Source: Flavobacteriales bacterium
GTDB lineage: Bacteria; Bacteroidota; Bacteroidia; NS11-12g; UBA955
DNA length: 46,079 bases
Assembly: GCA_002737705.1 (NCBI GenBank)
Contig: NSIM01000005.1
Span: forward strand, 74,623 to 120,701
Direction: 5' to 3'
Shown here: positions 32,095-45,532 of the stretch, one piece after another
Layout: each line of letters begins with the position of its first letter
How positions within the stretch are numbered: position 1 is the first letter of the stretch
Made by a program: the position numbers and the translations under genes
The notes under the pieces: generated by a model
Database searches by the model: none
Told to the model about the DNA's origin: nothing
What the model saw: only the letters and a program-made list of their open reading frames with translations

Positions 32095-33067
32095 ATACAT
32101 CACCAAAATCTTAGCAAAAATTGCCAATCACTCAATACTGTTGGTGTGTTTAACAATCACAGGCGCCTTGGTTGGATTGGTGTATGCCCAGTTTTTCCCC
32201 CAACAATACAAAGCCACCACAATGATTGGCATCGAGGAAGAAAAAGCCGCAGGTTTCGAATCGCTCATGGCACAATTTGGCCTGGATGCCGGAGGATTAA
32301 ACCCCGGAGGCATTTTTGAGGGAGAGAGTTTAATAACCTTGTTTAAAATGCGGCATATTGTTGAAAGTGCCTTGCGCTCATCAAAAAGCCGCAACACGCA
32401 AAAAACACAATCGCTGGCAGAGCGCTTTTATGTTCAGTCAGATTTTAAAGACGAAGCCCCTTTTCTCGGACAATCCTACGCTGCCATTCTAAAAAATAAC
32501 CGCCTTGCCGACACCTTGCATTATGTTTTGTTCAAAGCGTTGTTGAAAAAGCACTTTTCTTTTGACAAGCCCGACAAAAAACAGAGTTTTATTTATGTGA
32601 GTTGTACCCATCAAGATCCAGAACTTGCCTCCGATTTAACCGTTGCAATAGTCCATTCACTCTCAAATTATTACACCACAATTTTGAAAGAAAAGGTTGG
32701 GCAAAACTTAGAAGTATTGCAATTAGAAGCCGATTCTCTGCGGTATTTATTGAACAAACGATTGATCCAAACTGCGGTTCAATCAGATTTAAATGTAAAC
32801 CCAAACCGCCAAACATTGGGGGTTGACAAAAGCAAATCGATGGTAGATCTCCAAATTACCATCAACATGTACGGCGAAATTCTAAAACAACTTAAGTTGG
32901 CAGAGATCAGCCTCAAAAAACAAAATCCCTTGATCCAAATTTTGGATTACCCCAAATTTCCCTTTGAAAAAAGTGGTTTGCCCACTTGGCAAATTATTTT
33001 ACTGGGGGCTGTTTTGGGTGCCGCGCTCACTATTTATGTGGCTTTGAGGAATTATACCCATGACTAA
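32075..33067 (+). CDS. Wzz/chain-length determinant family protein
   Basis: A 330-residue inner-membrane protein with a helix near residues 20-42 (ILLVCLTITGALVGLVYAQF) and another at the C-terminus (IILLGAVLGAALTIYVAL), the PF02706 layout. After the first helix comes YKATTMIGIEEEKAAGFESL, and before the last LIQILDYPKFPFEKSGLPTW, matching the Pro-rich motif before the second membrane helix. A long periplasmic helical region lies between. It sets polymer length. No Walker kinase domain or Tyr tail is fused and no separate kinase is present. The start overlaps the deacetylase by 20 bases; the last codons lie in the duplicated segment at the flippase start. Confidence 0.85.
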   Translation: MSNPITKYITKILAKIANHSILLVCLTITGALVGLVYAQFFPQQYKATTMIGIEEEKAAGFESLMAQFGLDAGGLNPGGIFEGESLITLFKMRHIVESALRSSKSRNTQKTQSLAERFYVQSDFKDEAPFLGQSYAAILKNNRLADTLHYVLFKALLKKHFSFDKPDKKQSFIYVSCTHQDPELASDLTVAIVHSLSNYYTTILKEKVGQNLEVLQLEADSLRYLLNKRLIQTAVQSDLNVNPNRQTLGVDKSKSMVDLQITINMYGEILKQLKLAEISLKKQNPLIQILDYPKFPFEKSGLPTWQIILLGAVLGAALTIYVALRNYTHD

Positions 33068-33249
33068 AGATTATTTCACCCTTTATCTGGCAAAGATTTT
33101 CACTGCATTGTCTACGGCGTGGATACATGTTAAGTTGGCCCATGACTAAAGGTTTGTTTTACCCATGACTAAAGATTATTTCACCCTTTATCTGGCAAAG
33201 ATTTTCACTGCATTGTCTACGGCGTGGATACATTTTAAGTTGGCCCATG
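33057..33249. repeat. Nested tandem duplication at the flippase start
   Basis: CCCATGACTAAAG occurs at 33057, 33139 and 33162, giving steps of 82 and 23 bases. A 90-base segment (33055-33144) recurs at 33160-33249 with a single mismatch (33129 versus 33234). The first copy starts a 29-codon frame at 33060 that repeats the first 27 flippase codons and stops at 33149; the full-length flippase starts in the second long copy. Confidence 0.95.
33060..33149 (+). pseudogene. Truncated 29-codon duplicate of the flippase N-terminus
   Basis: Begins MTKDYFTLYLAKIFTALSTA and continues identically to the flippase except Val for Phe at residue 24, then ends His-Asp-stop where the duplication joins. Its ATG overlaps the wzz-like stop by eight bases, the usual junction in this operon, so it is probably the ancestral start. 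Its stop lies 15 bases before the present flippase ATG, so it could still act as a coupling leader. Confidence 0.75.
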
Positions 33250-34484
33250 TTTTTGGGGTAGAACATTATGGGTTGTTTGGCTTGGCCATTGTATTGTCTT
33301 TTTATTTTCTATTTGTAGCCGATTATGGATTGTCGGTGAGTGGTCCACGGGTTTTTCAGGAATTCTCAGACCCAGAACAAGGAATAAGGGTTGTTCAAAG
33401 CCTACGTTTGGTTTTGGGTTTTCTGTGTGCAGCAATCTATGCCCTGTGTATCGCAGTGTTTTACCAAGGCGTGGCATCCTATCTCATCTGGGCCTTGCCA
33501 TTGGTTCTTCTAAACGGCTTTGTAAACGATTGGCTCTTTCGTTCCATCCAAAAGCCCATCAAGTCGTCACAACGGCAAGTGATTCAATCTTTGATTCAGG
33601 TTCTTGGAATGTGTATTGCAATGAAAATCGGCGGCACTGAAAACCTGAACCCTACACTCAATCATACGCTAAGCCCTACCCTAAACCCTGCGCTAAGCCA
33701 TCCCGGTGCGTCGATGCAAGTTTTTCTCCTCATTTTTTTTCTGGCTCCTTTTCTATCTCAATGTGCCATTGGCTTTCACAAGCCCCCGCATTCAAGCGCA
33801 GTTTTGCCATTTACCCACAACTGGAAACCCCTTGGTAAAGACATCTTGGCCCTTCTTCGCAAACAATTTCCCCTTTTTTTGGGCCATGCACTTTACTCTT
33901 TACAATACAGTTTGCCCTATATTTTGGTGGGTTTCTATTGTAGCAGGCAGCAATTGGGTTGGTTTAACAGCCATTTTTTTTTGTATAGTAGCTTGGCATC
34001 AATTCTGCTCATTACCCAAGATGTATTTCTCTCTCAACAAAAACACAAACCGCGCTCTTTTCTGGTTTGGGTGCTTCTTTCAACGGCAGGAGCCTTGTTT
34101 GTTCTGTATCTTGGGCCATACTATTACGGACCCTTCTTTGGGCCCCAGGGATTTGTTTTTCAGACCGATTTAAACCTGCAATTTATGGTCTTGCTGCTAC
34201 TATTCATGGGGAGAATTCTGTACGTGAACAAGAGTATTTTTTCCCTAAATGGAAAGTTCTATGCACGTATAAACCTCCTGGCTTTGTGTTCTCAACTGAT
34301 GGGTTTTCTATGGGTTTTGGTTGTTCAGGCAGAAATAAGCAGCCGCCTTTTGCTAAATTTACTCTTGGGTTCGGAAGCACTTACCCTGATTGTATGCCTG
34401 CTATTAAACGCAAATAAAACCGGCCATATAGACTTGCTGAACAAACAACATACGACCGCAAACCATGAAAGCATTCTTGTTTAA
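33165..34484 (+). CDS. Wzx-like oligosaccharide flippase
   Basis: A 439-residue membrane protein with about twelve hydrophobic helices and the N-terminus typical of the polysaccharide transporter family: LAKIFTALSTAWIHFKLAHVFGVEHYGLFGLAIVL spread over helices 1-2, then VADYGLSVSGPRVFQEF. It should flip lipid-linked repeat units to the periplasm. Residues about 162-180 are a short tandem run (NPTL, NHTL, SPTL, NPAL) in a loop between helices, an unusual insertion. The start lies in the second copy of a tandem duplication. Its stop overlaps the polymerase start by 20 bases. Confidence 0.85.
   Translation: MTKDYFTLYLAKIFTALSTAWIHFKLAHVFGVEHYGLFGLAIVLSFYFLFVADYGLSVSGPRVFQEFSDPEQGIRVVQSLRLVLGFLCAAIYALCIAVFYQGVASYLIWALPLVLLNGFVNDWLFRSIQKPIKSSQRQVIQSLIQVLGMCIAMKIGGTENLNPTLNHTLSPTLNPALSHPGASMQVFLLIFFLAPFLSQCAIGFHKPPHSSAVLPFTHNWKPLGKDILALLRKQFPLFLGHALYSLQYSLPYILVGFYCSRQQLGWFNSHFFLYSSLASILLITQDVFLSQQKHKPRSFLVWVLLSTAGALFVLYLGPYYYGPFFGPQGFVFQTDLNLQFMVLLLLFMGRILYVNKSIFSLNGKFYARINLLALCSQLMGFLWVLVVQAEISSRLLLNLLLGSEALTLIVCLLLNANKTGHIDLLNKQHTTANHESILV
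33648..33704. repeat. 12-base in-frame tandem repeat in the flippase gene
   Basis: Four units encode NPTL, NHTL, SPTL and NPAL, followed by a partial SHP. Units differ at several bases, so the expansion is older than that in the OmpA or CapD genes. Confidence 0.7.
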
Positions 34485-35739
34485 ATACCTCCGTTTTCTG
34501 GTTTTCCTTCCCAATATTAATCCTTTCTCGGCATTGTTTAGTTCAGAAATTTTCCCCTGGGGGGTATTGTTCGGGCAAAGTGCTGGCTTTGGCATTCCCA
34601 AGCGCTATATTCATTTTTTGGCTTATGTGACTCTCTCCGGTGTCCTGGTGTTTTTTTTGGGCAAATCAGACCTGATGGGAACCAGCAGGGCGGCCTCGGC
34701 TTTGGTAAATGCCACCCTGCCCTTGGGCATCATTTTGTTATTGGATGACGATTTTTTGGCTGGCTTAAACAAAGCTTTTCACGCAGTATTCTATTTTCAT
34801 TTGGTCTTGATACCCATACAATATTTGGGATGGTTTCCGCATTTTTTAACACCTTTTTTTGGCTTTTTTATTGAACGGTTTACGTCGGTATCTACTGGTG
34901 ATGGTCGGGGGGTTGCCGGCTTGTTTGCAGAACCCAGTTATTTGGGCATTGCCATGATGTATTTCCCCATCTACAAAATCATCCACGACGATCTAAAAAA
35001 AGGCGATACACTGTGGCGTTTGTGGATTTGGGTTGCTGTCGTATACGAAGTATTGCTTATTCGCTCGGTTACCGGAACCGTATTTTTGTGCATTTATTTA
35101 CTCAGTACCCAATCTGCCAAACGCATCCTTCCAATACTGGGTATTTCCTTTGTTGCCTTGCTGCTTTTTTTGGGTATCAGCAAAGGACTCGACCAATTGC
35201 CACGACCGCTTGAAATATGGTACCAAATTATCTACCAAGGAGAATACAAAAACTTATATGGCTTTTTGCTGCACGAATCGGGTTTTCGGTTGGTGAGTAT
35301 TTTGGGTTCCTATTCTTATGGGGTTCTTCATTTGTTGGGCTCCGGCATAGGGTTATGGGGCCCTGCCAGTATCGTGGCTTTAGACAACGTGGGTATACCC
35401 GCTACCGATTTTGGTTTTTTTGTAACCTGGTATGGCGGTGTATTTGAAGGGGTAAGACCCACTGCGATTGTGGCCGATATAATGCTCGAATGTGGCTTGG
35501 TCGGCACCCTTCTTTTTGGGCGATTCTTACTACCCTTTATTCGGGTCAAAGAACTTTGGTCTATCCCCGAAGCACGGTCTTTACTCATTATTTTTTTGTT
35601 CAATATTCTCTTTTTGGGAAATATCGGTGACCCCACCCCTTTCGTTTTCTTGGGACTCACCCTAAGAAAAATTATGGGCGCAGAACAAGCCCGCAGCCTA
35701 TTTTTTACGCCCCCTAATATTCCAGTCGATGCACCATAA
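34465..35739 (+). CDS. Wzy-like polysaccharide polymerase candidate
   Basis: A 424-residue membrane protein with ten or more hydrophobic helices. The stretch DGRGVAGLFAEPSYLGIAMM (about residues 147-166) is the (R/G)xxGLFxEPSxLG motif recurring in O-antigen polymerases and related proteins. A large external loop follows near residues 240-330, as in Wzy proteins. Sequence similarity in this family is low, so the call rests on the motif, topology and position after a flippase. It would join repeat units at the periplasmic face. Its end overlaps the next gene by 11 bases. Confidence 0.7.
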   Translation: MKAFLFKYLRFLVFLPNINPFSALFSSEIFPWGVLFGQSAGFGIPKRYIHFLAYVTLSGVLVFFLGKSDLMGTSRAASALVNATLPLGIILLLDDDFLAGLNKAFHAVFYFHLVLIPIQYLGWFPHFLTPFFGFFIERFTSVSTGDGRGVAGLFAEPSYLGIAMMYFPIYKIIHDDLKKGDTLWRLWIWVAVVYEVLLIRSVTGTVFLCIYLLSTQSAKRILPILGISFVALLLFLGISKGLDQLPRPLEIWYQIIYQGEYKNLYGFLLHESGFRLVSILGSYSYGVLHLLGSGIGLWGPASIVALDNVGIPATDFGFFVTWYGGVFEGVRPTAIVADIMLECGLVGTLLFGRFLLPFIRVKELWSIPEARSLLIIFLFNILFLGNIGDPTPFVFLGLTLRKIMGAEQARSLFFTPPNIPVDAP

Positions 35740-38287
35740 GGACGGGGTTTGTATTGTATTGTGTTTTCACAACGAAGAAGCCAATTTGCCCCAAGCTGTG
35801 GCCGGTATTGTGTCGCAAACACATATTCATTGGCGACTGGTTTTGGTTGATGATGGATCGAGCGATGGGAGCAGCCATTGGGCGATGGAACAATCGAAAA
35901 AAGATCCACGGATTCAGGTTTTACGCGTATGGCCCCAAAAGGGCATATCTGCTGCCCGCAACGCGGGCATGAATCAATGTGTAAACCGCTACTTGGCTTT
36001 CTGCGATGCCGACGATGTATGGATGCCCTATAAATTGGAAAAGCAATTGGAAGCACTGCAAACAAAAAATGCCAGTATCTGCCACACCAATACCTGGTAT
36101 GTAGATGCAACAACAGGGTTTCAGTCCAAACCCACCCAACTGCCAAAACACATCACTTACAAGCGTTTGTTGATGGGAAATCCCTTGGGTTTTAGCACCC
36201 TACTGCTAGACAAACAAGCCCTCCGAATACCACTATTTCCCATTTTACCCGCAGGCATTATTCATGAGGATTATGCATTTTTAATTACCCTTTTTAAGAC
36301 CCAAGACGAACCCCATGAAATCGGTACAAGTGGAAGCGGTCCAGGTGGAAGCGGTCGGGAAGCTTGCATCTTTGCCCCAACGATAGCATTGGTAGAAACT
36401 CCCTGCGTTCGCATCGGACTCAGCGCACAGGGGCGTGCAGCTCAAAAAGGCAGGGCCTTGCGTTCACAGGCGTATATCCTAAAACACTATGCCGGCATAT
36501 CTCCCATTAGAATTATTGTATATTTGTTTAGTTATTTTTATCTCGCTATGAAAAAAAGACGTTCAGCGACTCTCATTCACATGGTAAAACAAGGATTTGT
36601 GTTTGGCATTTTACTTCGCTGTATACTAAATCTACAAGCCCAAACTGTGTCTGTAGGAATGCCTTATTTCGAAGACCGTTTAAGGTGTTTGCAATTGATG
36701 CAAGTATTGGACAGCAATGTGAGTTTTTGCAACCGCCCTATCGATTACCGCCATGGTCTTTCGTTACATACACTCTATTTTAATGACACAAACATTACCC
36801 CTTTTGATACGGCACACTACCATGGACGCCTAGCATTCAAAAAAATCCGCACCTATATTCAGGCTCTGCCCTTGGTATTAAAACTTAAATATGATACCCA
36901 CCATCCTTTTGGTTGGTCTGATGGGCCCATGATTCCGAATGTGGGGGCACAATATTATGTAAATGCCGGGTTTGAAATTGTGAGTCCCTTTCTTGATATT
37001 CGGATTGCCCCTGAATTGGTAAAAGCCCAAAATAAAGACTTTCAAAACCCCCCATACAGGCCTGGTGGTATTGATTTGATAGACCGTTTTGGCACCAAAC
37101 CCTATCAACAATTATTTTGGGGTCAAAGCCATGTGCGCCTGAATCTTGGTCCCATATCTACCGGATTGTCAAATGAAAATTTATGGTGGGGTCCTGGTAA
37201 AAAAGCCGCTATTCTGATGAGCAACAATGCCCCCGGTTTTGCCCATGGGTTTATCAGTACAAACCGCCCGATAAAAACTCCCTATGGCAGTTTTGAATTT
37301 CAATTGGTTGGTGGAAACCTCAAACCCTCAGGCTACTCGATTCCAACCACTCCCACCCAAGGAGAATGGCCCTATATTAGTGCCGCAGACAACCAAGTGA
37401 TCCCCAAAGAAAAACTCTATGACCGGGCTTTTAGTGGCTATTGTATCACCGTTCAACCCACACTAACCCCAGGACTTTTTTTGGGGTTTCAACGGGCACG
37501 ATTGTCGGATACCATTGCCAGTAAACAGGCCTATTTGGCTGTTCTTTCGAGCAAATTTGCACCCAAAGACGAGTATTATGGTTTGAACCGTATTGAAAAT
37601 GCCAACCAGTTGGTTACCATCTCTGCCCGGTATTTGTTTGCTGCCTCTCATGCCGAAATCTATGTTGAATGGGGTCGGGAAGACTGGGCCTGGGATATCG
37701 AAGATTTCTTAACCCAACCCGAAGTATCGAGGGCTTACTTACTGGGATTTGCCAAGGTATACCCAATAAACAGCACAAAATATCTCAGCTTCAGCGGCGA
37801 ATTTACCAATATCCAAGCCCCTTTTGTGTCGTATTCACGACAGAAGGGATACAGTTTTTATACCCATTCATCGGTGGGATATACCCACCAGGGACAGGTT
37901 ATGGGTGCAGGCATTGGTCCTGGAAGCAATATGCAAAGTATCGAATTTTCTGCAAATGATGGGTATAAGTCTAAGGGTGTTCGCATTGAAAGGGTTGTGC
38001 ACAATATAGACCAATTGTATTGGCGGATGGAGGCTTGGAAATTGCCCAACGCCAACCCCAACAAAGTAGACGATTCCAAAAACTTTGTAGACATTTGCCT
38101 CACAGGATTCAAACAATTTTTCGTACACAAAGCCATTGTAAATTACAAACTCGTTGTGATGAAAACCTATAACTACAATTGGTGGTATTTGTCGCCAAAG
38201 GACGGGGGTAGAGATGGTCCCTTTCGCTTCAAGGGGAAAAACCTGTGGTCTTGGGGTGCGGAGGTGTCTTGGATTCAACGCTTTTAA
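35729..38287 (+). CDS. Fusion of glycosyltransferase family 2 and Wzi-like outer-membrane capsule protein
   Basis: An 852-residue single frame. Residues 1-273 are a complete GT2: GVCIVLCFHNEEANLPQAV, LVDDGSSDGS, AFCDADDVWMP (DxD) and IIHEDYAFL. A Gly/Ser insertion (GTSGSGPGGSG) lies near residue 200. From Met274 a signal-like segment appears (KKRR, then QGFVFGILLRCILNLQAQ), followed by about 550 residues like Wzi/capsule-assembly proteins: SNENLWWGPGKKAAILMSNN, YGLNRIENANQLVTISARYL, YVEWGREDWAWD. Cytoplasmic and outer-membrane modules on one chain make no topological sense unless the signal is cleaved or an internal start is used; ATGs at 36548 and 36581 are candidates. Loss of a GT2 stop codon would explain it. 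Confidence 0.85.
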   Translation: MHHKDGVCIVLCFHNEEANLPQAVAGIVSQTHIHWRLVLVDDGSSDGSSHWAMEQSKKDPRIQVLRVWPQKGISAARNAGMNQCVNRYLAFCDADDVWMPYKLEKQLEALQTKNASICHTNTWYVDATTGFQSKPTQLPKHITYKRLLMGNPLGFSTLLLDKQALRIPLFPILPAGIIHEDYAFLITLFKTQDEPHEIGTSGSGPGGSGREACIFAPTIALVETPCVRIGLSAQGRAAQKGRALRSQAYILKHYAGISPIRIIVYLFSYFYLAMKKRRSATLIHMVKQGFVFGILLRCILNLQAQTVSVGMPYFEDRLRCLQLMQVLDSNVSFCNRPIDYRHGLSLHTLYFNDTNITPFDTAHYHGRLAFKKIRTYIQALPLVLKLKYDTHHPFGWSDGPMIPNVGAQYYVNAGFEIVSPFLDIRIAPELVKAQNKDFQNPPYRPGGIDLIDRFGTKPYQQLFWGQSHVRLNLGPISTGLSNENLWWGPGKKAAILMSNNAPGFAHGFISTNRPIKTPYGSFEFQLVGGNLKPSGYSIPTTPTQGEWPYISAADNQVIPKEKLYDRAFSGYCITVQPTLTPGLFLGFQRARLSDTIASKQAYLAVLSSKFAPKDEYYGLNRIENANQLVTISARYLFAASHAEIYVEWGREDWAWDIEDFLTQPEVSRAYLLGFAKVYPINSTKYLSFSGEFTNIQAPFVSYSRQKGYSFYTHSSVGYTHQGQVMGAGIGPGSNMQSIEFSANDGYKSKGVRIERVVHNIDQLYWRMEAWKLPNANPNKVDDSKNFVDICLTGFKQFFVHKAIVNYKLVVMKTYNYNWWYLSPKDGGRDGPFRFKGKNLWSWGAEVSWIQRF

Positions 38288-38299
38288 TACTGTTACTAT

Positions 38300-40735
38300 A
38301 TGAAAAAACTTTTTTTTATACTTTTATGCATAGGTTTTCTCTCTCCTGTGTGGAGCCAAGATTTTTTCTTCAGTAAGAACCTGGCCGACATCAAAGTAGA
38401 ACAACTTACAGAACTACAAATTCAACAGTATAAAAGGCAAATACAAAACGCAAACCTCACCGAAATGCAGGCTACAGAGTTGGCCAAGAAAAGGGGTATG
38501 TCTGAAGATGAAATTCAAAAACTGAAAGACCGCATGTCGGTGCTCGATATTTTAAGTGGTACTGCCTTTTCAAAAGAACAGTCTACACTAAAAAGACAAG
38601 ATACGGCAGGGGTTTCAGACAATATTGTTAATCGCAAAGCAACCCCGTTAATCGAAAAAATATTTGGTTCGGATTTGTTTGCCAATGCCCAAATGACGTT
38701 TAATCCCAACCTGAGCATTGCCACCCCAGAAAATTACGAATTGGGAACTGGTGATGTAATCAATATATTGGTGTATGGCTACCAAGAGGCATCATACCAA
38801 CTCACCATCACAAAAGATGGGTTTGTAAATATTCCCCGAATTGGTGTTGTTACTCTCAATGGATTGAGCATCAAGGCAGCCAAGGTTTTGCTTAAGAAAA
38901 AATTCATTCAAAATGGGTATGCAAGCCTGGGCAATGGCCAATCTCAACTGGCGCTCAATTTGGAAAACATCCGAAGCATTCATGTTACTGTCATCGGTGC
39001 CAACCACTCTGGAAATTATATGCTTCCTGCGGTTGCCACCGTATTTCATGCCCTGTATGTAAGCCAAGGACCTGCTCCCAATGGTTCTTACCGCAATATA
39101 CAACTCATCCGCAATGGAATACTAAAACAAACCATCGATTTATATCCCTTGCTTTGCCGTGGCGACAACAGTGCCGATATTGGTTTGCGTGATGGCGACA
39201 TTCTCTATATTCCATTGTATTTGTCTCGTATTAGCATAGCAGGTCAAGTAAAACGAACCGGATTGTTTGAGTTATTGCCAAAAGAAAGCCTAGAAAATCT
39301 CCTTTACTATGCGGGTGGATTCAACGAAATCGCCTACAAAAATCACCTCTATATCGAACAGTTAACCTCCAAAGAACTGCGTGTACAAGACGTGTATACA
39401 GATTCTTTTGTCAGTTTTATGCCCCAATCGGGCGACAAAATCTTTGTCTCTGGTATTCTAAACCGTTTCCAGAACCAAACCTGTATTATGGGAAACGTAA
39501 AGCGTCAAGGGAAATATGAATTTACTGATGGCATGCGGTTGTCTGATCTTATTGCAAAGGCCGACGGATTAAAGGAAAATGCCTTGACCAACCGTGCCCT
39601 TATCATTCGAAAAGGATTTGATCACAAACTGCAATATCATCATTTTAACCCTCTTTTGGCAATACGCAAGGATCCATTGCACGACCTGTTGCTCCAAAAT
39701 TTAGATTCAGTGGTCATTGAAGACCAACAAATAACAAACCCCCTACAATTTGTCGAAATTTTGGGTGAAGTAAATAACCCAGGCACTTTTTTACATGGAG
39801 AAAATCTTTGCTTAAAGGATGCTCTGTTTTTGGCCAATGGATTTACCCAGTATGCCAATATTCGGGATATCGAGGTATACCGCCATGTGGTTGCAGAACC
39901 ATCAGATGGCAATACCATAACACGCCTGATGACGCCAATTTTAGATACGCTCAAATCTGTATCTCAAGAACTGATTCTCTTGCCCAGCGACATTATTGTG
40001 GTTCGAAAAAAAACAAATGGGATTTCTCTGGGTACGGTATATATTGAGGGTGCAGTTTCGAATGCGGGTAGCTATCCTATCTTAAACAATCGGTTTGGCC
40101 TACTCCAATTGCTGCAGCAATTGGGCAAAGCAGATGCTTCCTTAGACCCCAATGGCATATATATAATCAGAAAAAAAGATATGACCGCAAACCCCGATTT
40201 GCTCACAAAAAAAATAAAACTCCCTGTTTCTCTGGTGAGCGGTTTGTATGATTCAGTGGCGCAAAAACCTGAATGGGCAAATTTGCAAAAACAAAAAACC
40301 CTCCTAATTTCGGTTGATTATAAGAAATTGCTATCGGGTAGAAAAAAATTCGATATTGTGCTTTTAAACCAAGACAAGATCGTGCTTGGCAAGTTTTCAA
40401 ATACGGTTACATTGTTGGATGGAATTCAAAACCCGACCGTATTGACATACAGAAAACACAGACGCGCCGATTATTTTATTGACAGGGCGGGGGGCTTTTC
40501 CGAGAACAGCATTCGAAAACAAACCTATGTTGTCTATCCCAATGGCAAATCAATAAAAGCCAAGCATTTTTTGTTTATTGTTTGGTATCCCAGAATGGTT
40601 TCTGGCAGTTTGGTCATCGTTCCAGAAAAAGACCTGTCTACAGTCCAAACCTCTATGGAGCCCAGTGTAAAAGTTGCCCTGTTTAGCATCATTTCATCCA
40701 CCCTCACCATGATGTATCAGGTTTTAACCAAATGA
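38300..40735 (+). CDS. SLBB-domain polysaccharide export protein (Wza-like)
   Basis: An 811-residue exported protein with signal peptide (1-19, GFLSPVWSQ). After an Arg/Lys/Gln-rich helical region it has the export domain (NYELGTGDVINILVYGYQ, about 147-164) and then five or so SLBB repeats (IHVTVIGANHSGNYML, ISIAGQVKRTGLFELLP, TCIMGNVKRQGKYEFTD, VEILGEVNNPGTFLHGEN, VYIEGAVSNAGSYPILN). The C-terminal helix (VALFSIISSTLTMMYQVL) could cross the outer membrane. Such multi-SLBB proteins replace Wza in Bacteroidota. It follows the Wzi-like segment by 12 bases, consistent with joint function in export. Confidence 0.92.
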   Translation: MKKLFFILLCIGFLSPVWSQDFFFSKNLADIKVEQLTELQIQQYKRQIQNANLTEMQATELAKKRGMSEDEIQKLKDRMSVLDILSGTAFSKEQSTLKRQDTAGVSDNIVNRKATPLIEKIFGSDLFANAQMTFNPNLSIATPENYELGTGDVINILVYGYQEASYQLTITKDGFVNIPRIGVVTLNGLSIKAAKVLLKKKFIQNGYASLGNGQSQLALNLENIRSIHVTVIGANHSGNYMLPAVATVFHALYVSQGPAPNGSYRNIQLIRNGILKQTIDLYPLLCRGDNSADIGLRDGDILYIPLYLSRISIAGQVKRTGLFELLPKESLENLLYYAGGFNEIAYKNHLYIEQLTSKELRVQDVYTDSFVSFMPQSGDKIFVSGILNRFQNQTCIMGNVKRQGKYEFTDGMRLSDLIAKADGLKENALTNRALIIRKGFDHKLQYHHFNPLLAIRKDPLHDLLLQNLDSVVIEDQQITNPLQFVEILGEVNNPGTFLHGENLCLKDALFLANGFTQYANIRDIEVYRHVVAEPSDGNTITRLMTPILDTLKSVSQELILLPSDIIVVRKKTNGISLGTVYIEGAVSNAGSYPILNNRFGLLQLLQQLGKADASLDPNGIYIIRKKDMTANPDLLTKKIKLPVSLVSGLYDSVAQKPEWANLQKQKTLLISVDYKKLLSGRKKFDIVLLNQDKIVLGKFSNTVTLLDGIQNPTVLTYRKHRRADYFIDRAGGFSENSIRKQTYVVYPNGKSIKAKHFLFIVWYPRMVSGSLVIVPEKDLSTVQTSMEPSVKVALFSIISSTLTMMYQVLTK

Positions 40736-42979: not shown

Positions 42980-45532
42980 CTACCGGGCCAAAATAATTTT
43001 TATAGATTTCCACAAAATGCGGCAATCGAATAAAAACGAAGCATGTTGAATATAATACAAGTCGAAATTGAGTTTTTCTTCGTAATCTTCCAGGGTGGCA
43101 TCTGGATTGTTTATCTGAGCCCACCCAGAGATGCCGGGTTTTAACGCGTATCGCTTAACATACCCTGCATTGCGCAATTCGTATTCTTCTGAGAGCAATA
43201 CTTGCTCAGGTCTGGGCCCAACCCAACTCATGTTTCCGAGTAAGATATTGATGATTTGCGGCAATTCGTCGATGCGGGTTTTTCGAAATATCATCCCAAT
43301 CCAAGGAATAACGGTTCCATCATTTTTGACCATCCCTGCCCGTTGGTTGTTGTGGCCATTTTTGAGGGTTCGAAGTTTATACAAGAAAAAAGATCTGCCA
43401 TCATATCCCCGCCTTTGTTGTGAGATAAAGAGGGGTAATCCTGCCTTTAGCAGCAAAACCGAAGCTGAAACGATGAGAATAAGGCATGCCATCGGGAGCA
43501 CCAGTATGCTAAACAAGATATCAAAAATCCTTTTTCTGCGACTCAATCCATAGGTGCTTGGTTGAAATACACCCTCTATTCCATTTCCATTTCCATTTCC
43601 ATTTCCATTTCCATTTCCATTTCCATTTCCATTTCCATTTCCATTTATTCTGTACCGGTCGTTGAAAGAATTGTCTATGCCGTACTCGGGCACTGTCGAT
43701 TGGAGCCAGTGAAATAAGTCTGTGGTTTTTTGGCTTTTGGATACAATTTCTTTGAGTTGAGCAAAGGCTTGTTGCACTTCCGAGTGATTGGTCTCTCTTA
43801 TGTGTGCCACCCTAATTTTGGGATGGGGTGAAGGCAAATCTGTTTCTAGGTTGCTGATTAATTCTTCGAATAATTTTTCGCCCTGCCGGAGTCCAGTATA
43901 GACGATATTGATGTCTTTATTGGGAACAAGCCCTGCAAGTCGGATCATGTTTTCGGCCAAATTTTTAATCAATACGGGCTCTCCCATGTCAAATACATAA
44001 ATTTCACCCCCCGAAGACATCGATCCTGCCTGCAAAACCAAGCTACAAGCCTCGGGTATGGTCATAAAGTATCGAATAATGTCTTTGTGCGTAACCGTTA
44101 CGGGGCCCCCAGCTTCGATTTGATTTTTGAATGTAAGCAGAACGCTTCCATTGCTTCCCAATACATTGCCAAAACGCGTCGTTATAAATTGGGTTTGAGA
44201 CAGCGAATTGCTCGATTGCACATACCGCTCTGCTGCCCTTTTACTGGCTCCCATCACATTGGTGGGGTTGACCGCTTTGTCAGTACTAATTTGTATAAAC
44301 TTTTCTGCCTTATACCGAATGGCCAAATCGGCCAAATCGGCGGTTGCCATCGTGTTTACCAACAGGGCCTGTTTGGGGTTCCCCTCCATCAAAGGGACAT
44401 GTTTATAGGCTGCCGCATGAAAAACAATGTCAAATTTATGGCTGTCAAACAAATCATTCATCACAATATTTTGGCAAATATCTGCCACCACAAACCGCGT
44501 GTTGATGCTTCTGTAGTTTCGCATTTCATTTAATTCTTGTTCTAGGTAAAAAAGGGGCGATTCGGCATGGTCTAACAAGACAATATTGGCTGGCCAATAC
44601 TGAAGAATTTGCCGAGAAATTTCGGATCCAATACTCCCTGCTGCCCCGGTTACGAGTATGTTTTTGCCAAACAAAAAGTTTTTTAATTCTTTGTCGTTCA
44701 ATACGATTTGTTCTCTTCCCAACAAATCGGAAATGTTCATATTTTGCAAGCTGCCTTTGTCTATCCCTTGTATAAGGCTTTGGGAAATATCGGGTATCCG
44801 CTGCAAAAGCATGTTTTTTTCCAAACAAATTTTTGCGATCTCTTTTTTGTTATTCTGTGAAATTGAGTTGATCGCCAAAACCATACTCTTTGCGATTCCG
44901 GTATCAATAAACTTGGCTTTGGCCAATGCCATGGAGTAGACCCTAACACCCTGGAGGTTTTTGCCTTGCTTGGATGGATTGTTGTCAATAAAGGCCAATA
45001 CATGGCGATTGCCTTTAAAATTGTTGAGTAACGCGGTACCCGCTTTCCCTGCACCATAAATAAGTGTCGGATTGTCTTTGATACTTTGATGGCTTTCGAG
45101 CGCCAATATAAACTTTACAAAGAGCCTGTAGGTAACCAATGCGAGAGAAGAACATAAAAAATCTACAGCGATAAATTGTATCGAAATTCGTTCTAATGCT
45201 TCCGAATGGACTGGGTAATTGTATTTAAACCACATTATCCCAAAAAACATAGAGATCGCTACCAACAAACGAAGCAAATACACTTTTACACAATCTTGAA
45301 TCGCAGTTTGACGAATAATGGTCTCGTGCACAGAAAACAAAAGATGCCAAAATACACTGATTGATAAGAGAAAAAACCAGATCCATTGGGTTTCTTTGAT
45401 AAATTCAAATACGTCCTTGGGCAAGCCAAAAAAAAGCATTTGAACAATACACAATGAAGCAATAATTACAATACCATCCAAAGCGAAAATAATATTTTTG
45501 GATACAGTACTATTTTTTATGAACTTGATCAT
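42980..45532 (-). CDS. Fusion of CapD-type nucleotide-sugar dehydratase and phosphoglycosyl transferase
   Basis: An 850-residue bifunctional protein. Residues 1-120: four membrane helices; ~140-270: CoA-binding-like Rossmann domain (TLIYGAGKAGTALL); ~285-625: SDR dehydratase (VTGAAGSIGSEISRQIL, AAYKHVPLMEGN, ISTDKAVNPTNVMGASKRAAE, the Ser-Met-Lys type of WbpM/PglF). After eleven Asn-Gly pairs (~630-651) comes a phosphoglycosyl transferase: RRKRIFDILFSILVLPMACL membrane hairpin, RRGYDGRSFFLYKLRTL, RIDELPQIINILLGNMSWVG with catalytic Asp-Glu, and PGISGWAQIN. It would both make a 4-keto-6-deoxy sugar nucleotide and load a sugar on undecaprenyl phosphate. The two activities are usually separate genes. 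Confidence 0.93.
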   Translation of the reverse strand: MIKFIKNSTVSKNIIFALDGIVIIASLCIVQMLFFGLPKDVFEFIKETQWIWFFLLSISVFWHLLFSVHETIIRQTAIQDCVKVYLLRLLVAISMFFGIMWFKYNYPVHSEALERISIQFIAVDFLCSSLALVTYRLFVKFILALESHQSIKDNPTLIYGAGKAGTALLNNFKGNRHVLAFIDNNPSKQGKNLQGVRVYSMALAKAKFIDTGIAKSMVLAINSISQNNKKEIAKICLEKNMLLQRIPDISQSLIQGIDKGSLQNMNISDLLGREQIVLNDKELKNFLFGKNILVTGAAGSIGSEISRQILQYWPANIVLLDHAESPLFYLEQELNEMRNYRSINTRFVVADICQNIVMNDLFDSHKFDIVFHAAAYKHVPLMEGNPKQALLVNTMATADLADLAIRYKAEKFIQISTDKAVNPTNVMGASKRAAERYVQSSNSLSQTQFITTRFGNVLGSNGSVLLTFKNQIEAGGPVTVTHKDIIRYFMTIPEACSLVLQAGSMSSGGEIYVFDMGEPVLIKNLAENMIRLAGLVPNKDINIVYTGLRQGEKLFEELISNLETDLPSPHPKIRVAHIRETNHSEVQQAFAQLKEIVSKSQKTTDLFHWLQSTVPEYGIDNSFNDRYRINGNGNGNGNGNGNGNGNGNGNGIEGVFQPSTYGLSRRKRIFDILFSILVLPMACLILIVSASVLLLKAGLPLFISQQRRGYDGRSFFLYKLRTLKNGHNNQRAGMVKNDGTVIPWIGMIFRKTRIDELPQIINILLGNMSWVGPRPEQVLLSEEYELRNAGYVKRYALKPGISGWAQINNPDATLEDYEEKLNFDLYYIQHASFLFDCRILWKSIKIILAR
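43580..43645. repeat. (TCCATT)11 perfect hexanucleotide repeat
   Basis: Eleven exact copies without interruption, encoding eleven Asn-Gly pairs on the minus strand between the two domains of the fusion. The unit is a multiple of three, so slippage changes linker length but not frame. Confidence 0.97.

Follow-up and report, generated by a model that had tools for sequence, protein, structure and literature searches.

Genes and domains at the locus

The window (the whole stretch of 46,079 nucleotides that was analysed) holds a Wzx/Wzy-type exopolysaccharide cluster of a Bacteroidota genus. A single forward-strand frame in this cluster (35729-38287) contains a GT2, an internal signal peptide and a Wzi; it begins at the ATG at 35729, closes with the TAA at 38285-38287 and runs through 852 codons with no internal stop. 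A chain-length protein and flippase-like and Wzy-like membrane proteins are encoded upstream. The start of the GT2 is overlapped by 11 bp by the gene of a Wzy/ligase-like membrane protein with no Pfam match (34465-35739, forward strand), an order that is also found in relatives. Directly downstream lies the gene of an outer-membrane polysaccharide export (OPX) protein carrying Poly_export and SLBB (38300-40735, forward strand). Two further features of the locus were noticed. A 105-bp tandem duplication (98%) at 33055-33249 lies across the boundary between the Wzz-like and the flippase-like gene, taking in the end of the one and the start of the other, and a second fusion, between a CapD/PglF-type dehydratase (PF02719) and a bacterial sugar transferase (PF02397), occupies 42980-45532 on the reverse strand. 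The Asn-Gly repeat linker of this dehydratase-transferase fusion (43579-43646) is encoded by a perfect hexamer repeat of 11.3 copies, whose length could change with the frame kept.

An earlier note on this DNA had described a complete GT2 and a complete Wzi in one stop-free translation unit, and the 852-residue frame with its two Pfam matches bears this out. The GT2 part (residues 1-284, 35729-36580, forward strand) matches Glycos_transf_2 (PF00535) over residues 8-143 with a score above the cut-off (E 3.8e-29, 102 bits), is predicted to adopt a GT-A fold and has GT2 enzymes as its best structural matches. Alignment shows that the DXD-type, metal-binding motif CDADD and the downstream acidic motif HEDYAF are shared with relatives, and these motifs, taken with the selection described below, suggest an active enzyme. 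A 15-bp tandem repeat at 36322-36356 (forward strand) forms a Gly/Ser-rich loop within the GT2 that is without counterpart in relatives; a second species of the genus (G012), whose assembly breaks around there, lacks it in this form. The GT-A fold, the Pfam GT2 match above cut-off and the acidic motifs are also common to the GT2 enzymes 5HEA and WrtF (9OMN), but unlike in these the membrane-side tail at the C-terminus of the window GT2 runs on into an exported protein.

The mature Wzi part (residues 305-852, 36641-38284, forward strand) consists of a helical plug and a barrel resembling those of 2YNK, and matches Caps_assemb_Wzi (PF14052) at residues 482-735 with 41.6 bits against a cut-off of 30.1. 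Structures were predicted for the two halves separately with the junction included in each. The model of the Wzi half, which has a modest pLDDT of 62.8, was matched to E. coli Wzi (2YNK) with a Z score of 34.6 over 390 of 441 residues at 3.3 A, where model residues 35-579 align to residues 27-475 of the chain; the next best barrel scored 20.5. In the model of the GT2 half, the last helix continues through the signal peptide (259-304) with low confidence. E. coli Wzi (2YNK, PMC3791409) shares with the window Wzi the barrel, the N-terminal helical plug, a signal peptide that is cleaved or, in the window, predicted to be cleaved, and, within a Wzy-type locus, a place next to the gene of an OPX protein. 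The two proteins are 13% identical. E. coli Wzi is encoded by a separate gene and its signal peptide is N-terminal (residues 1-23), whereas that of the window Wzi is internal, being preceded by the 284 residues of the cytoplasmic enzyme. For Wzi homologues encoded close to OPX genes a role as lectins has been described (PMC3791409); those matched by the barrel alone have been proposed to be export porins (PMC9603273). The two halves belong to different compartments, as the earlier note had held, and two of the routes it offered, processing of the chain or an internal start, are weighed below.

The junction and its origin

The internal signal peptide covers residues 285-304 (MVKQGFVFGILLRCILNLQA; 36581-36640, forward strand), and its ATG is equivalent to the start of the separate wzi in relatives. 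A basic, signal-like segment had previously been placed at residues 274-308. A signal peptide is indeed present within it, but in the alignment residues 274-284 (MKKRRSATLIH) fall on the C-terminal end of the GT2 proteins that relatives encode separately, where the sequence is SKKRIVGRWF or close to it. Because these separate GT2 proteins end at window residue ~284, the basic KKRR stretch is by this alignment the GT2's own tail and the signal peptide of Wzi starts at M285 (ATG 36581). Both of the ATGs named as candidate internal starts exist and are in frame; the first of them (M274, 36548-36550, forward strand) is, judging from the alignment, most likely part of the GT2 tail.

The signal peptide is made up of a basic n-region (VKQG), a hydrophobic core (FVFGILLRCIL) and the motif LQA before Q305. 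The predicted signal peptidase I site (L302-Q303-A304 followed by Q305, 36632-36643, forward strand) places the cut between A304 and Q305, so that the last Q of LQAQ follows the cut and does not precede it as had been supposed, and Q305 is invariant in all 13 aligned Wzi, fused and unfused. In Bacteroidetes, Gln is exposed after signal peptidase I cleavage in 71% of predicted substrates on average, and the site at A304 and Q305 fits this rule of an N-terminal Gln (PMC5837995). The N-terminal position expected of a Sec/signal peptidase I substrate was not observed, the segment being internal unless ATG 36581 is the start. The core is interrupted by R297 in the window and by K299 in G012, and this signal peptide appears to be a weakish one.

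Seventy genomes of the family were searched for relatives. The second species, G012 (SYIL01000027.1), has a Wzi that is 95% identical in amino acids to that of the window, and its frame is free of stops through the junction up to the start of the contig, inside the GT2. The first 166 residues of its GT2 are found at the end of another contig (G012:C7), and therefore the assembly gap falls in the middle of the GT2 and not at the junction. The shared stretch differs by ~6% of nucleotides between the two species. Over the last 65 codons of the GT2 (220-284) eight synonymous and no nonsynonymous changes were observed, and the Wzi parts differ with dN 0.023 and dS 0.22. The signal-peptide segment showed more rapid evolution than the segments on either side, a usual trait of signal peptides, both in this comparison and among the methyltransferase fusions described below. 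An ordinary overlapping or coupled gene pair was considered and rejected, there being no in-frame stop at the junction in either the window or G012.

Six relatives with complete junctions (G011, G013, G042, G074, G084 and G099) have two ordinary genes that abut or overlap, in the gene order Wzy-like - GT2 - Wzi that is common to them and the window, and the end of their separate GT2 marks the fusion point at window residue ~284 in the GT2 protein alignment. In five of them (all but G013), Wzi is 41-44% identical to that of the window and the two ORFs, unlike in the window, have their own stop and start. Of the refuting outcome named in the note, one half, relatives with two ordinary genes, is seen in these six, but the other half, an isolated error, fails since G012 shares the fusion under purifying selection. 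Because the junction is open in two species at this distance and the tail is under purifying selection, the fusion is, on the evidence of these alignments, neither an isolated error nor very recent, and we regard it as almost certainly real.

An A7 run at 36551-36557 (forward strand) lies near the 3' end of the GT2. If one A is removed in either species, the GT2 ends at a TAA (36585-36587, forward strand) that overlaps the wzi ATG (ATGGTAA), as expected of coupled genes. This TAA, which stands in the +1-shifted frame and is conserved in G012, is a probable remnant of the ancestral GT2 stop. The ancestral GT2 and wzi, adjacent or overlapping, would then probably have been joined in frame by a one-base change in the length of the A7 run. 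Such a change is preferred over a stop-codon substitution because the shifted frame keeps the TAA over the wzi ATG in both species. The suggestion that a stop codon was recently lost is thus replaced on both counts, as a dS of ~0.2 is too large for a recent event and the one-base change fits the origin better. Three changes separate the window from G012 between the A7 run and the ATG; all are in third positions and are synonymous in the fused frame but nonsynonymous in the other. The chance that three of three fall in third positions is ~0.04 (one third cubed), which is supportive but not decisive.

Other enzyme-Wzi fusions in Bacteroidota

The survey of Wzi frames covered 108 genomes of the order, samples of 395 genomes each from the class and the phylum, and two additional orders; long frames were inspected by direct reading. 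A class I methyltransferase followed by a signal peptide and Wzi was found in four species of one genus from another family (G390, G448, G491 and G493). A WecG/TagA/CpsF-type glycosyltransferase is joined through a signal peptide to a divergent Wzi in a single, 81%-complete genome (G353; L093:8119-10443, reverse strand), with 775 residues from the first ATG, and this fusion lies directly upstream of a glycosylphosphotransferase gene. The three fusion partners (GT2, methyltransferase and WecG/TagA) are mutually non-homologous. In the Wzi tree the fused state takes four changes, at least three of which are forced by well-supported branches. Since the partners are unrelated and the tree demands at least three changes of state, the fusions have independent origins.

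Every fusion keeps an internal signal peptide with the phylum's site, an Ala before the cut and a Gln after it, and the hydrophobic cores reach KD11 values of 2.5-3.0 as against 2.1-2.8 in unfused Wzi. Between G448 and G493, the tail before the signal peptide shows five synonymous and no nonsynonymous changes, and in the methyltransferase fusions the dN of the signal peptide is 0.46 compared with 0.05 in Wzi. The methyltransferase halves of G390 (L079) and G491 (L090) are near-identical (dS 0.13) whereas their Wzi halves are saturated in dS, and the G390 Wzi groups with the unfused Wzi of G293 (L084) with a support of 98/100. Judged by these distances and this grouping, the Wzi module of G390 is an allele replacement in which the join was kept.

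Several other long Wzi frames proved not to be fusions. Those of G264, G315, G363 and G594 have untranslated or low-complexity leaders, those of G516 and G632 are GC-rich spurious frames, that of G575 carries an N-terminal exported domain and that of G672 has a toxin-like fragment upstream. In G551 (L095) a Wzz-like protein and Wzi are in the same frame but a single TAA stands between them; the computed open-frame length spans both, and such figures therefore need to be checked by translation. No enzyme-length extension was found in ~150 Omp85 frames from nearly the same class sample (longest 969), a rough control that is not matched in constraint because Omp85 is largely essential.

Probable processing of the fused product

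With no stop between the halves, any GT2 that is made is made as GT2-Wzi. We are inclined to favour a single preprotein that is inserted by Sec at its internal signal peptide and cut by signal peptidase I. Ribosomes finishing the GT2 would meet no stop and continue into Wzi. The GT2 domain would fold and work in the cytoplasm at the inner membrane while the internal signal peptide enters SecYEG and the basic GT2 tail faces the cytoplasm. Signal peptidase I would then cut between A304 and Q305; the signal peptide would stay attached to the GT2 as its C-terminal tail in the inner membrane, and mature Wzi would be released to the Bam pathway. This reading builds on an open frame, two complete domains, a conserved junction, an intact signal peptide with its site and recurrence with other enzymes. 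From these we infer that a single chain is translated and inserted by Sec, that it is cleaved and that both products are active. The predicted topology is compatible with this route, as the enzyme and its basic tail would be inside, the core in the translocon and the site a normal one for signal peptidase I.

A possible but rather unlikely alternative is a nested gene, where Wzi is mainly produced by internal initiation at ATG 36581 in translational coupling to the GT2. Any GT2-Wzi chain made by read-through would then be tolerated as a by-product or serve only as a tailed GT2. ATG 36581 lies exactly at the wzi start of relatives, is conserved in G012 and alone would give a normal signal peptide of 20 residues, and the GT2 and wzi of unfused relatives abut or overlap, as coupled genes do. 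Its context, however, is unremarkable, with no A-rich leader and an accessibility at the 55th percentile of the ATGs of the ORF, and internal initiation would leave unexplained how a GT2 is made alone. Start context and RNA accessibility were compared for ATG 36548 as well, and for neither ATG were they decisive. In the other fusions no ATG stands at the corresponding position. In G390 and G448 the nearest ATG is found 46 and 38 codons before the cut, with only GTG and TTG from there to the hydrophobic core. The 60 codons preceding the cut in G353 include TTG but neither ATG nor GTG, and for this reason internal initiation, though a plausible answer for the window, is less convincing as a general one. 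The two routes are not mutually exclusive, and Wzi may come wholly or partly from ATG 36581.

The A7 run gives rise to two further readings, as length errors and slippage typically occur in such runs. If slippage or phase variation occurred there, some chains would end at the TAA at 36585 with Wzi restarting at the overlapping ATG while others would be fused; one A fewer does give a GT2 stop overlapping the wzi ATG in both species. Seven A residues are nevertheless short for slippage and both species have seven, only the fused frame makes the three downstream changes synonymous, and neither the methyltransferase nor the WecG fusion depends on the run, which leaves this explanation very improbable. 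A decay of one half, with the fusion real but that half non-working, is marginally less probable still; the expanded GT2 loop (36322-36356) and the weakish signal peptide would fit it, but both halves are under purifying selection and the catalytic motifs and the cutting site between A304 and Q305 are intact. We give least credence to an assembly or sequencing error of one base in the A7 run. The genome is a draft from a metagenome and the frame depends on how many bases one homopolymer has, but an identical A7 run and frame occur in G012, across a shared stretch that differs by that ~6% of nucleotides, and the codons of the GT2 tail are conserved.

A preprotein of the favoured kind has a precedent in Bradyrhizobium FbcH (cytochrome b / c1), a prokaryotic polyprotein precursor where one ORF gives two proteins with an internal signal peptide between them. 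The window fits the same layout of one ORF and two complete proteins separated by an internal signal peptide. Both FbcH products remain at the inner membrane, within it or on its surface, and their processing is demonstrated, whereas in the window one product would be cytoplasmic and the other an outer-membrane barrel, with processing deduced from the sequence. Both halves belong to established families; what is new is a cytoplasmic enzyme joined to an outer-membrane barrel, retained across species and with repeated independent origin with different enzymes. A literature search found no description of a GT-Wzi fusion, which is weak evidence of absence.

Fusions across compartments are usually assumed to be absent, since joining would be expected to prevent export or leave the enzyme stranded. 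The fusions described here suggest that bacteria can make such enzyme-Wzi pairs as one protein that is cut at a built-in export signal. They further suggest that a natural preprotein can be handled by the Sec/signal peptidase route even with a folded cytoplasmic enzyme exceeding 250 residues before its signal peptide, because three unrelated joins were made onto Wzi, two are kept across species and all have an intact cutting site. We tentatively put forward, as a proposal slightly more open to doubt than to belief, that a cytoplasmic enzyme of surface-polysaccharide synthesis and Wzi made as one preprotein and cut at an internal signal peptide form a recurrent, selected architecture in Bacteroidota. 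Domain-based annotation would assign such chains to one compartment and miss the other. If the proposal is true, the ratio of enzyme to Wzi would be fixed at 1:1, the leftover signal peptide would tether the enzyme at the inner membrane, and recombination could exchange the Wzi module while the enzyme ahead of it stays the same, as seen in G390.
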